Assembly (NCBI GenBank): GCA_017408885.1
Contig: JAFQTT010000009.1
Span: 124,001 to 188,000, forward strand
DNA: 64,000 bases
Reading direction: 5' to 3'
From: Methanocorpusculum sp.
GTDB taxonomy: Archaea > Halobacteriota > Methanomicrobia > Methanomicrobiales > Methanocorpusculaceae
Part shown: positions 13,241 to 38,570 of the stretch, in pieces
Position numbering within the stretch: the stretch's first letter is position 1
Layout: the number at the start of each line of letters is the position of its first letter
Notes under the pieces: model-generated
Databases searched by the model: none
The model's input: the letters and a program-made list of their open reading frames with translations, nothing else
What the model was told of the DNA's origin: nothing
Program-made: the position numbers and the translations under genes

Positions 13241-14118
13241 CAGGAGATCATTCACACCACGGACATATGCATGACCATGAGCACATGCACGGAGACGGGG
13301 TGATTCACTCCCACCCGCACTCACACGAAGAAAATCATGAGCACCACTCAGACTGCCCCGGAGAGGCAATCCTGAAGGTGGACGGAGTTGAGTTCGGATA
13401 TAAGAGTTTCAAGGTTTTGGAGAATATCGAGGTTGGTGTTTCCAGAGGTGAGATTCTTGCAATCCTTGGGCCAAACGGTGTTGGAAAATCGACACTTCTT
13501 CGCTGTATGAATATGATTCTGCGCCCGCAAAAAGGGGCAGTCATGGTTGACGGCGAGGAGCTTTCGAAGATGTCGCCAAATGAGATTGCAAAACATGTTG
13601 GATATGTTGCGCAGAGAAGCGAAGCTGCCCGCATGACTGTGTTTGATTCGGTGCTTCTTGGACGAAAGCCGCATATCGGCTGGAGACTGACGGTTGATGA
13701 TTATTCGATGGTGGAGGATGCTCTTGTCAAATTCGGACTTTCGGAGATGCAGCTTCGCTATATTGATGAGATTTCAGGAGGAGAGCTTCAGAGGGTTTGT
13801 GTATGCCGCGCTATTGTGCAGGAGCCGTCAGTTCTTCTGCTTGATGAGCCGACATCTGCTCTTGACCTGTCGCGTCAGATGGAGATTTTGCATCTTATCC
13901 GGCATGTTGTTGACCAGCATAACTGTGCAACAATTATGACGATGCATGATTTGAATCTCGCGCTGAGGTTTGCGGATAGATTTGTGTTTATGAAGGGCGG
14001 AAAAATCTATGCGGCATGTGATAAGTGGGGAGTTACGCCGGAGCTGATTTCGGATGTGTATGGAATCGAAGTGGATGTAATTTTCCATAACGATTTGCCA
14101 GTTGTGATTCCGAAGTGA
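13237..14118 (+). CDS. ABC transporter ATPase with histidine-rich N-terminus
   Basis: ATPase of the FepC/BtuD type, 293 residues. Residues 44-290 form a standard ABC domain: Walker A GPNGVGKST at 78-86, the Q-loop VAQR, the signature ISGGELQRV, Walker B LLLDEPTSALD and the switch His in MTMHD. The first 40 residues are extra: about 15 are His, in runs such as HSHHGHMHDHEH, ending in a Cys. This could hold Ni, Zn, Co or Fe and act as a sensor or store (inference). The start is GTG at 13237, overlapping the permease stop; an AGGGAGGAG ribosome site lies just upstream, inside the permease gene, supporting this start and so the extension. Confidence 0.93.
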   Translation: MTGDHSHHGHMHDHEHMHGDGVIHSHPHSHEENHEHHSDCPGEAILKVDGVEFGYKSFKVLENIEVGVSRGEILAILGPNGVGKSTLLRCMNMILRPQKGAVMVDGEELSKMSPNEIAKHVGYVAQRSEAARMTVFDSVLLGRKPHIGWRLTVDDYSMVEDALVKFGLSEMQLRYIDEISGGELQRVCVCRAIVQEPSVLLLDEPTSALDLSRQMEILHLIRHVVDQHNCATIMTMHDLNLALRFADRFVFMKGGKIYAACDKWGVTPELISDVYGIEVDVIFHNDLPVVIPK

Positions 14119-14125
14119 TGTTTTT

Positions 14126-14167
14126 CCCGCCTGTCCGCCTGCTAATCGCGGCGGACTTTTCGGCGGG
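14126..14167. repeat. Two-step hairpin after the uptake operon
   Basis: Inverted repeat with outer arms CCCGCC (14126-14131) / GGCGGG (14162-14167) and inner arms GTCCGCC (14133-14139) / GGCGGAC (14150-14156). The loop includes GCTAATCGC, a motif that recurs in other hairpins of this window. It may serve as a terminator or be a mobile palindromic unit. Confidence 0.6.
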
Positions 14168-14210
14168 CAATCATGTTTTTGTGACAATTCTTTTTTAATA
14201 TAGATAAAAC

Positions 14211-14268
14211 GGTTGATGCTCTTTTGCTGTTTTTCCGTCGGGCTAAAAACAGCAAAAGAGCATCAACC
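14211..14268. repeat. Perfect 24-bp inverted repeat
   Basis: Arms 14211-14234 and 14245-14268 are exact reverse complements over 24 bases, separated by the 10-base loop CCGTCGGGCT. The stem starts GGTTGATGCT. It lies between two further GC-rich hairpins and between convergent genes. This is longer than needed for a terminator. Confidence 0.75.
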
Positions 14269-14316
14269 TAAAAACCAAATCAGACAAAAGTCTTGAAATC
14301 AAAAAAATCTTTTTTT

Positions 14317-14358
14317 CCCGCCGAATAGAGCGGCGCGGTTAGCAGCCGCTCCGGCGGG
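14317..14358. repeat. GC-rich hairpin before the RbkR stop
   Basis: Outer arms CCCGCCG (14317-14323) / CGGCGGG (14352-14358) and inner arms GAGCGGC (14329-14335) / GCCGCTC (14345-14351). A T-run precedes it on the plus strand. It resembles the hairpin at 14126-14167 in reverse orientation, with the loop reading GCTAACCGC on the minus strand. Confidence 0.6.
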
Positions 14359-14385
14359 CAGAACCACACTACAAAAAAAAGAAAC

Positions 14386-35404: not shown

Positions 35405-36171
35405 ATTGTCTTCGCTCCTTTGCTGAATCAGTCTATGCAGAATTAGTCCTTCGCAGGCTGACTAACACCCCGAAGCATGTCGCCATCATTCAGGATGGAA
35501 ACCGCCGGTATGCTAAAGAGCACGGGATGAGCGTGGATATGGGACACAAGCTTGGGGCAGACACAACTCTTCGTGTACTTGAGTGGATGAAAAAGCTTGG
35601 AATCAAACACATCACATTCTACGCTTTCTCTACTGAAAACTTCAAACGCGATGCAGACGAAGTCGATGGTCTGATGGAACTCTTCGTTGACAAGTTCACA
35701 GAGATGCTTTCCGACGCACGTGTTGTTGATAATAAAATCAATGTCACTGTGGTTGGAGACAGAACCCTCATCCCGCCGCATGTCTTAGAAAAGATTGAGG
35801 CAGTCGAGGAAAAGACAAAAGATTTCAACGACTATTATGTCCATTTCGCTCTCGCCTACGGCGGAAGAAATGAAATTGTGGAAACCGCAAAACGCGTAGT
35901 TTCAGCATATCGGAATGGCGAGATTACTCTTGATGAGATTACGCCGGAAAAAATTACCGAGAGCATGTATCCTGCAGGAGACATGCCGCCGGTTGACCTG
36001 ATTCTACGGACAGCAAATGACAGGAGAACTTCCAACTTCCTGCCCTGGCTTGCAAACGGAAACGAAGCGGCAGTCTGTTTCTGTGTTCCAACATGGCCTG
36101 AGTTCCGCTATGTGGATATGGTAAGAGCTCTTCGGACATACGACGAGCGGATGAAAAGTTCTGCTCGGTAA
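35401..36171 (+). CDS. uppS: Cis-prenyltransferase (UppS family)
   Basis: Makes long-chain cis-polyprenyl diphosphate, the lipid carrier precursor for archaeal glycosylation. The 256-residue protein shows HVAIIQDGNRRYA (normally IIMDGN, with the catalytic Asp kept), FYAFSTENFKR and RTANDRRTSNFLPW near the C-terminus. The start is TTG at 35401, overlapping the stop of the radical SAM gene; the family's N-terminal helix (about 20 residues before HVAII) supports it. An archaeal rather than bacterial flavour is seen in NGNEAAVCFC. Confidence 0.92.
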   Translation: MNCLRSFAESVYAELVLRRLTNTPKHVAIIQDGNRRYAKEHGMSVDMGHKLGADTTLRVLEWMKKLGIKHITFYAFSTENFKRDADEVDGLMELFVDKFTEMLSDARVVDNKINVTVVGDRTLIPPHVLEKIEAVEEKTKDFNDYYVHFALAYGGRNEIVETAKRVVSAYRNGEITLDEITPEKITESMYPAGDMPPVDLILRTANDRRTSNFLPWLANGNEAAVCFCVPTWPEFRYVDMVRALRTYDERMKSSAR

Positions 36172-36186
36172 TTCTTTTTTATTCGA

Positions 36187-36430
36187 GAAACACGAATCCA
36201 CACTAATCAAAGCGAATCGCGTGCCTATTCACGGCTCATTTCACTGCTTATCGCGGTGAGCCGCGGCACGCTTGCGCCCTCGCAGTCGGCTCGGGCGTAA
36301 TGTTGATTCTCGAATCTTTCCGCCCGAGCCGACTGCGAGGGCGCAAGCACGTTTAGGCGCGTAGGCGATAAGCCGATTACGCGCCGTTAAGAGCGTGCGA
36401 TTTGTGTTGATTAGTGTGGATTCGTGTTTC
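36187..36430. repeat. 244-bp cloverleaf-like palindromic element
   Basis: The ends form an exact 24-bp inverted repeat (36187-36210 and 36407-36430). Inside are three further hairpins: left (CGTGCC 36220-36225 / GGCACG 36265-36270, with nested CGGCTCA/TGAGCCG), a central exact 28-bp repeat (36270-36297 / 36321-36348), and right (GGCGCGTA 36356-36363 / TACGCGCC 36378-36385). Folded, this gives a four-way, tRNA-shaped secondary structure. It sits between the uppS end and the end of the convergent regulator gene and reaches its last codon. It has no open frame of note. It may be a MITE-like unit, a structured RNA or a strong terminator. Confidence 0.8.
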
Positions 36431-37244
36431 AGGATAGGTTTTGAACAGGAGAAGAATTCACTGAATCTATCAAATGAAAGAGATTATACTTCTTACTCCA
36501 CTCTCGCATCTCATCACTTAACTGATAGAATGCAGTTCCGCTCTCAACTCTTTTTCGTACAACTTCCTCTCCCTTATGGCTTAGGTGATAGTACACAGTA
36601 TCAGGAGACAACTTTGTTTTTTCAGCAATATCCTGCCGTGACAGTTCTCCTCCATCAAAAAGAACACCACAAATTTTCCAATCTATCTCATCATCGAATA
36701 CTTGTATGAATGATTGTACTTTTTCGTCCGCTGTAACAGGTAATGCAGAATAAAATGTTCTGCCTCCAATCTCTTTAGAAAATATTTTGCCTTCGCGACT
36801 TAGGCGATGAATCTGATATCTTACAGAGCCGCGAGAGATATCAAGTTCTCTAACGAGTTTACTCAGAGATGCTGGAGGATAATGATTCAGATATGAGAGA
36901 ATCTTTGCCGGAGTTGATGCAGCATTTTCCTCTGGATTTTTTCTGCGGCTGAACAGCAGAAAACCAGAGACGGAAAGTATTGTGAGAAGGATTAAAGCAT
37001 ATGGATAGAGGGTATAGCGGATAAAATCTTCTGCTACTTCGGGCATGGATGGAAGATACCCAAGATACTCTGGTTTGTTTATTACTATATAACTATCAGG
37101 ACTTAGAATATGTTCAAATATGATAGGATGTACTGTTACATCTCCATGAATAAGGAGAGGCAGAGCTTCTTCAGAATTTACAGGATTAGATATGAAGATA
37201 GTAAGAAGAAGGATGGTTAGTATGAGAATCGCACGTTTATTCAT
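36429..37244 (-). CDS. Membrane-anchored regulator with two winged-helix domains
   Basis: A 271-residue protein with an N-terminal signal or membrane helix (about 5-22), an extracellular part (about 24-75), a transmembrane helix (about 79-100) and a cytoplasmic region with two winged-helix domains (about 112-170, LSKLVRELDISRGSVRYQIHRL; and 188-250, LSRQDIAEKTKLSPDTVYYHL). This fits the DUF-type membrane-bound transcriptional regulators of Methanomicrobia. Both helix-turn-helices look intact. It lies 84 bases after the secreted protease gene and may control it. Confidence 0.8.
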   Translation of the reverse strand: MNKRAILILTILLLTIFISNPVNSEEALPLLIHGDVTVHPIIFEHILSPDSYIVINKPEYLGYLPSMPEVAEDFIRYTLYPYALILLTILSVSGFLLFSRRKNPEENAASTPAKILSYLNHYPPASLSKLVRELDISRGSVRYQIHRLSREGKIFSKEIGGRTFYSALPVTADEKVQSFIQVFDDEIDWKICGVLFDGGELSRQDIAEKTKLSPDTVYYHLSHKGEEVVRKRVESGTAFYQLSDEMREWSKKYNLFHLIDSVNSSPVQNLS

Positions 37245-37328
37245 CCAATCAAACTCAATTCAGTAATAAAAAAAAATGTTTTTGAGAGTATAAATACTCA
37301 TTGGCCAAAAATTACCATCTGGTCTTTT

Positions 37329-38477
37329 CTACCGTGTTTTTGGAACAATGCCTAAATCTGTCATAACATCACCTAAAGATGAGAAGATTCTAACGTTGAG
37401 GTCATCATTTTTGCCCCAATGTAACCCAACAAGACAAAATTCATGTGTTGTTCTATCTTGCTGAAAGACCGGTGCTCCGCTGTCCCCGTATGTACCACTG
37501 TAAGATGCTAACCACTGATCTGGGAGAGTACGACCAAATTTATCATGTTCTACATCAGCTAACCCAATCAAATTGCCATATGAATGTGTCACTGCACCTG
37601 CCATAACAACAACTTTTGAACCATCAGGCACACTTGCATAGGTAGATACAGCTCGTTTGTTTCCACTTGAGCCTGGACTATATATAGATGCTTCAACATT
37701 TCCAAATGGAATCCATGCAGAATCAGAATTAACCGAGCCAATTGCAGCGACAGTTCCTACTAAGTTATCAGATGAATATGTTGGTTGATAAACCTGAGAG
37801 CCGATTACAAAGTCATGTCCATGTGTAACAAAACCATTCTGTCCATTTTTGGTAGCTGCAAATCCAACAGTACTATCAAAAGCAGTTGATGATGTAACAC
37901 CTAATTGTTGAATACCACCAATAAGTGGTCTCCATCTATCATCATTCGTTGCTCGTGAAGTTATATCGACTGACTTTGTTGTAGTAGTAGCTCCATTTGT
38001 TACTTTAACAAGAAGAGGAATCTCACCATAAGTTTTCTGAGTTATTTTATCAAAACCCTCTATAATAGAAGATATCGTGGTATCGTCCACAGAGCTCTTA
38101 ACCCATATAAAGTAATATCCAAATCTGTCTATACCAAATCCAGATACCACTCCTTTTTCAATCAATTTAGAGAAGTAACTAGATACTTTTTCATCACGGT
38201 GAACCAATGCTAATTTCTGAAGTTTCTCTTCTAATGTGAGAGATGATAAACCATCACGAGAATAAATACTCTTTTCTTTCAGTTTTACAATCTCAGCATC
38301 AGTAGACCTAAGTTGTTCGTTATCCGGATTATATAATCCGCGTACGATATCATCAGTACTGAGCTTGAATTGTTTCTCAGAATCATCAGCAGAAACAGCC
38401 CCTGCAAAACATCCAAGCATGATAAGGAAAAAGCATACAATGTATGCAGTTTTTCTTTTGTTTGTCTGTAATTTCAT
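37329..38477 (-). CDS. Secreted chymotrypsin-fold serine protease
   Basis: A 382-residue secreted protein with a signal peptide (about 1-30, cut near VSA-DD), a propeptide-like region (about 31-175) and an S1-type protease domain. The likely triad is His221 (GFVTHGHDF, like the GFVTAGHC of alpha-lytic proteases), Asp252 (NSDSAWIPF) and Ser333 (GDSGAPVF). The prodomain arrangement also resembles alpha-lytic-type enzymes. Secreted S1 proteases are rare in methanogens. Base composition is more AT-rich than neighbours, a hint of transfer. Confidence 0.85.
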   Translation of the reverse strand: MKLQTNKRKTAYIVCFFLIMLGCFAGAVSADDSEKQFKLSTDDIVRGLYNPDNEQLRSTDAEIVKLKEKSIYSRDGLSSLTLEEKLQKLALVHRDEKVSSYFSKLIEKGVVSGFGIDRFGYYFIWVKSSVDDTTISSIIEGFDKITQKTYGEIPLLVKVTNGATTTTKSVDITSRATNDDRWRPLIGGIQQLGVTSSTAFDSTVGFAATKNGQNGFVTHGHDFVIGSQVYQPTYSSDNLVGTVAAIGSVNSDSAWIPFGNVEASIYSPGSSGNKRAVSTYASVPDGSKVVVMAGAVTHSYGNLIGLADVEHDKFGRTLPDQWLASYSGTYGDSGAPVFQQDRTTHEFCLVGLHWGKNDDLNVRIFSSLGDVMTDLGIVPKTR

Positions 38478-38570
38478 ATGCTTTACCTCCGTTGAAGGTT
38501 TTTGACAATGTTAACCATTGCCTAAAAGATACTTTTCTCTATCAGCATATGAATAGATTGACCAGATTTT

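Follow-up and report, generated by a model that had tools for sequence, protein, structure and literature searches.

A gene-less cloverleaf palindrome in Methanocorpusculum and its link to putative mobile elements encoding a GxxExxY nuclease

The 64,000-nucleotide stretch of a Methanocorpusculum sp. genome analysed here (the window) carries, between two convergent genes, a 244-base palindrome that folds as a cloverleaf, which raises the question of whether it is a MITE-like unit mobilised in trans or a structured RNA, the two possibilities put forward in a sequence-only reading of the same DNA. Sequence comparison and folding reproduce the architecture described in that reading: the outer arms (36187-36210 and 36407-36430) form a stem of 24 exact pairs and enclose three hairpins, the central one of which (arms 36270-36300 and 36318-36348) contains 28 consecutive pairs. 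The arms had also been called perfect, and this is true of the 24 outer and 28 central consecutive pairs but not of the arms at greater length, the outer arms being 91% complementary when extended to 34 nt and the central arms 97% complementary. Folding z-scores were -17.8 for DNA and -17.0 for RNA, and an equally good fold appeared in none of 200 dinucleotide shuffles. A left remnant immediately outside the palindrome (TTATTCGA, 36179-36186) is similar to the extended end (TTACTCGA) of other copies. When the window was compared with itself, one other comparably long palindrome was found (14114-14370), which is unrelated to the cloverleaf and has an A/T-rich outer part and CCCGCC hairpins; by eye, parts of it are similar to sequence near another locus, L011.

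Table 1. Positions of the cloverleaf, its modules and the adjoining features in the window (a dot marks features without a strand)
Feature	Position	Strand	Remark
Gene-less palindromic element, 244 bases	36187..36430	.	Extent as drawn in the sequence-only reading
Left terminal arm, about three 10-base units (..CACGAATCCA CACTAATCAA AGCGAATC)	36187..36218	+	Units of this architecture also flank GxxExxY genes
Side hairpin X, type A, loop CTTATCG	36219..36271	+	
Central hairpin with variable loop	36270..36348	.	Same loop in L057 contains a GxxExxY gene
Side hairpin Y, type B; stem unlike X, loop same as X	36347..36398	-	
Right terminal arm, inverse of the left arm	36399..36430	-	
Winged-helix regulator	36429..37244	-	Stop codon 36429-36431 shares two bases with the end of the element
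Block of element, regulator and protease-like gene, 2.4 kb	36172..38570	.	Present in G000 (own genome) and G002

The cloverleaf lies between a UPP synthase gene on the forward strand, which ends at 36171, and the convergent winged-helix regulator gene; the convergent setting noted earlier was thereby borne out, as was contact with the regulator's last codon, in the form of the stop-codon overlap entered in Table 1. In both genomes with the block, the UPP synthase gene is followed by the element and the regulator and then by the protease-like gene. The latter (37329-38477, reverse strand) encodes a 382-aa protein with a signal-like start that has no match in Pfam or NCBIfam and is termed protease-like from its sequence by eye only. 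In 12 congeners without the block, the UPP synthase gene is convergent with a DNA-alkylation-repair-like gene 3-100 bases away, and the other 10 of the 24 UPP-synthase loci gave no alkylation-gene match in the stretch covered. Judged by the UPP synthase protein (98.8%), the closest relative of the own genome is G007, yet it is without the block, which leaves repeated gain of the block, its exchange or its precise loss as explanations. The same-site element of G002 is 95.5% identical to that of the own genome, compared with 72-88% for the flanking genes, and the recent origin that had been read from the perfect arms is therefore not required. The intergenic sequence at the far end of the block (38478-38570) is 98.9% identical between these two genomes, with genes of 72-81% identity on either side.

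Searches of the genome and its relatives revealed that the cloverleaf is not unique but dispersed and multi-copy. A second copy, 92% identical, is located elsewhere in the own genome, where only these two copies of the subfamily match, and matches were obtained in 6 of 60 relatives (7 of 61 genomes including the own one), all from the same genus, with many copies in G010 and one at ~95% in G002. Comparison of the copies yields a common order of modules, which starts with an outer arm of some three 10-base units and runs through the side hairpins to the central hairpin with its variable loop. The side hairpins have at least four stem types and share the loop CTTATCG; the two are unlike each other in all 13 full gene-less copies and alike in the gene-bearing copy L057 described below (a shuffle test of the unlikeness gave P 0.0034, a weak value that is only indicative as the 13 copies are not independent). 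Additional modules are seen in some copies (e.g., a 44-base hairpin inside the outer arms of L055, L062, L064 and L071, with AT on both sides in 4/4; a hairpin with TGCCCTTCGG..CCCTCGC in the central arm of L060, L069, L071 and L072). The AT on either side of the 44-base hairpin gives the impression that small hairpins insert into the 10-base units and duplicate 2 bases as they do so. Long flanks are common to several copies, so larger segments may have been copied in some other way.

These comparisons bear directly on the proposal that the palindrome is a structured RNA, or a bidirectional terminator between convergent genes, used by the host. Its position between convergent genes, its higher identity to the G002 copy than that of the neighbouring genes, and an apical stem kept by double changes would all suit such a role; across the 8 sequences of side hairpin type A, 97.8% of cells are paired, and the apical helix has three pairs with changes on both sides. 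Double changes can also come from hairpin-templated correction. A host-used RNA or terminator is nevertheless quite improbable, given that the same junction exists without the element in 12 congeners, that no Rfam family was matched at the gathering score (the best hit reached 27.2 bits against 75, with only sub-threshold microRNA-like and other matches), that a gene-bearing element occurs among the relatives, and that hairpin stems are swapped wholesale between copies. Of the earlier suggestion of a structured RNA there remain the double changes by which one side hairpin keeps its pairing. A modular DNA element is the better fit for side hairpins that are exchanged whole between copies.

The gene-bearing element (L057, 3588-4315, in G010) matches the cloverleaf in its outer arms, side hairpins and central arms, and its central loop is opened by an open reading frame. 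The product of this frame, the sole gene seen in the loop, belongs to the GxxExxY family (PF13366, 8.7e-37; TIGR04256, 2.8e-37), with scores above the curated cut-offs (127.6 versus 35 bits for TIGR04256 and 126.5 versus 22 bits for PF13366), and we infer that L057 represents an autonomous element. The link of the cloverleaf to the GxxExxY element family is strong, and its descent from that family of nuclease elements is very likely; the fuller reading, in which the cloverleaf belongs, as a gene-less and non-autonomous member, to a palindromic mobile-element family whose autonomous form encodes GxxExxY, is probable. Within the genus, and counting the own genome, 16 of 25 congeners have GxxExxY genes. 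Amongst the loci examined from these genomes, 14 of 26 unpaired GxxExxY genes are situated between inverted repeats scoring at least 60, compared with 0 of 303 control intervals, and the arms around GxxExxY genes reach 215 nt at 95%; for GxxExxY genes in convergent pairs, the count between such repeats is 0 of 22. None of the GxxExxY loci read in the own genome is tightly enclosed by inverted repeats. At least eight opposed unit pairs in another congener (G015), with starts 324-417 bp apart, have no GxxExxY match between them.

The paired genes form a second GxxExxY subfamily, in which two convergent genes lie 1.3-8.7 kb apart around differing restriction-modification genes (e.g., L144, L145 and L146 on contigs C7, C11 and C13 of G000, and L150 and L152 on contigs C4 and C6 of G007, plus further pairs). 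The bracketed genes include a C5 methyltransferase, type I hsdM/S/R, MmeI-type IIG, DpnI and HSDR_N, while some brackets gave no defence match. The paired GxxExxY genes look like bookends of exchangeable defence cassettes.

Beyond the genus, a GxxExxY query provided 80 loci from named archaeal and bacterial records, with taxa assigned by record title. The sources include, among archaea, Methanophagales and, among bacteria, Chloroflexi, Planctomycetota, Acidobacteria, Bacteroidetes, Thermodesulfobacteriota, Verrucomicrobia, Omnitrophota, Cloacimonadota, the cyanobacterium Chamaesiphon, Alpha- and Gammaproteobacteria, and Firmicutes. Directly 5' and 3' of the GxxExxY gene there are inverted tandem units (e.g., ACCGCAGAGAACGCAGAGAGCGCAGAG), and a two-unit motif, picked after inspection of the same loci, is present on either flank of the gene in 60 of 75 loci (5 of the 80 were dropped because of short flanks) versus 0 of 252 shifted controls. 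An inverted-repeat score that uses no motif was at least 40 in 24 of 74 loci (6 of the 80 dropped) versus 0 of 258 controls. Tandem units are common throughout genomes, the three-unit pattern having been recovered from all 10 genomes searched, with one reversed-control match in all. Among other archaea of the phylum, the eight inspected loci of one family, f10 (L117-L124), lack long enclosing repeats, whereas four f14 loci (L125, L127-L129) do have them. Taken together, the finding of GxxExxY between matching inverted ends in archaea and many bacteria hints at a mobile element of a kind that is widespread and apparently undescribed. At the sensitivity used, GxxExxY was detected on 8 of 72,556 plasmids and 0 of 50,697 phages, a rarity implying that its spread is not simply a matter of plasmid or phage carriage. 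The breadth of this association also weighs on the possibility that the cloverleaf derives, as a MITE, from an ordinary DDE insertion sequence (ends TGTCCTTACTC..AACACGAATCC) with which GxxExxY merely hitch-hikes. Four copies (L056, L066, L070 and L072) do lie inside longer repeats with ends like ATGAAAACCTCT; since these outer repeats are not common to all copies and unrelated genomes whose outer sequence differs also show the GxxExxY association, this origin is very improbable.

The GxxExxY proteins retain the catalytic residues of a PD-(D/E)xK nuclease, D..ExK with QxxxY (D in 61/61, E in 60/61, K in 60/61, Q in 61/61 and Y in 60/61 proteins). A search of solved structures by sequence returned no significant GxxExxY relative. 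The nearest fold to the predicted model (pLDDT 96) is SSO0001 (Z 9.6), which we take to be a Cas4 protein, followed by the archaeal Holliday-junction resolvase Hjc (Z 7.0) and a Cas4 protein (Z 6.3), although values of Z below 8 may mean a common fold only. To our knowledge, it would be unusual for a PD-(D/E)xK enzyme to serve as the sole mobility protein, and the predicted likeness to Cas4-like and Holliday-junction nucleases would be as compatible with a function in repair as with one as a transposase. GxxExxY could accordingly be a homing-type or repair-provoking nuclease that cuts empty sites or cruciforms, its copies spreading by recombination (gene conversion) instead of transposition, a route with which the fold matches, the long flanks common to some copies, and the better conservation of the element than of its neighbours between G000 and G002 are all compatible. 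Gene-bearing elements are found at many sites with differing neighbours, unlike a homing element restricted to one site, and we regard the homing or repair scheme as unlikely. Mobility through GxxExxY itself is somewhat favoured.

Presence and absence of elements at corresponding sites provide further information. The gene-bearing element L178 of G015 occupies ~1 kb between two flanks that are 9-38 bases apart in G012, G017 and G014 and that overlap in the alignment in G003, and a gene-less copy is present at this site in G020; because the intergenic flanks have diverged, the exact ends of the G015 element are not fixable. Likewise, a palindrome of the own genome with another end type and 10-base units nested inside (L147) is absent from the same site in G007, where the flanks are 87-91% identical. 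The search for empty sites thus succeeded at the L178 site, at the L147 site and for the window block, while a comparison of L057 with L068 gave no clean empty site. Target duplications, looked for by eye outside the arms of 14 gene-bearing copies, were not evident for whole elements. The earlier notion of a MITE-like unit mobilised in trans accordingly gains dispersed copies, presence/absence sites and a gene-bearing form with the same ends, but no movement was observed and no clear target duplications accompany it.

With regard to known systems, the cloverleaf resembles a MITE in being short, gene-less, intergenic and present in multiple dispersed copies, in having terminal inverted repeats, and in possessing, in L057, a gene-bearing form with matching ends. 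It differs in that this form encodes a PD-(D/E)xK nuclease and not a DDE transposase, and in that the ends of its family consist of tandem 10-bp units and hairpins, outside which no clear target duplication was evident. The cloverleaf can be described as MITE-like, a gene-less passenger of a gene-bearing element. REP/REPIN elements, which are thought to be moved in trans, are likewise palindromic and dispersed and are associated with RAYT (Y1 HUH) transposases; a Y1 transposase (PF01797) was found in none of 8 genomes by a search that was positive in 5 of 14 known genomes used as control. The 23S rRNA intervening sequences with a four-helix-bundle protein also have a long stem whose loop accommodates a small gene, but the GxxExxY element is not in rRNA and its protein is unrelated. 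A REP measures 20-40 bp in the excerpt available from one account (PMC3733652), unlike the 244 bp and three hairpins of the cloverleaf. For the GxxExxY family, of which the L057 gene is a member, the accessible portion of one publication contains no mention of palindromic ends (PMC8934634), and the excerpted text of a MITE review is without the words 'nuclease' or 'PDDEXK' (PMC10969869). In the open-access literature searched, no description of a GxxExxY-bearing palindromic element or of the cloverleaf was found, and none joining PDDEXK with palindrome, mobile or terminal-inverted-repeat.

Under the preferred reading, that of a palindromic mobile-element family with GxxExxY as the gene of its autonomous form, each arm of an element would comprise an end built from roughly three tandem units, each 10 bp or one helical turn long, then a side hairpin and half of the central hairpin, the loop of which would hold, in the autonomous form, a single gene for a GxxExxY-family PD-(D/E)xK nuclease. 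This protein may bind the 10-bp units in phase, or an extruded cruciform, and may cut at the element ends, such that its cutting would move its own element and, in trans, the gene-less copies. The side hairpins of the gene-less copies may differ because, if the palindrome were symmetric and its loop short, it would collapse to a single, unstable hairpin. Extended to the whole family, GxxExxY elements would be a new class of prokaryotic mobile element: a palindrome with three helically phased 10-bp repeats per end, whose sole gene encodes a RecB/Cas4-like PD-(D/E)xK nuclease that moves the element and swarms of gene-less hairpin derivatives (e.g., the cloverleaf) in archaea and more than a dozen bacterial phyla, with a paired subfamily that brackets exchangeable restriction-modification cassettes; this generalisation is tentative, falling slightly short of an even chance. 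A nuclease family that is annotated but functionally blank, and often present in many copies per genome, gains a concrete, testable role, and tandem-unit palindromes of environmental genomes become linked to the GxxExxY gene. The known mobility routes are DDE, HUH, tyrosine, serine, Cas1 and reverse transcriptase, and if the nuclease alone moves the element, a PD-(D/E)xK enzyme would be added to them.
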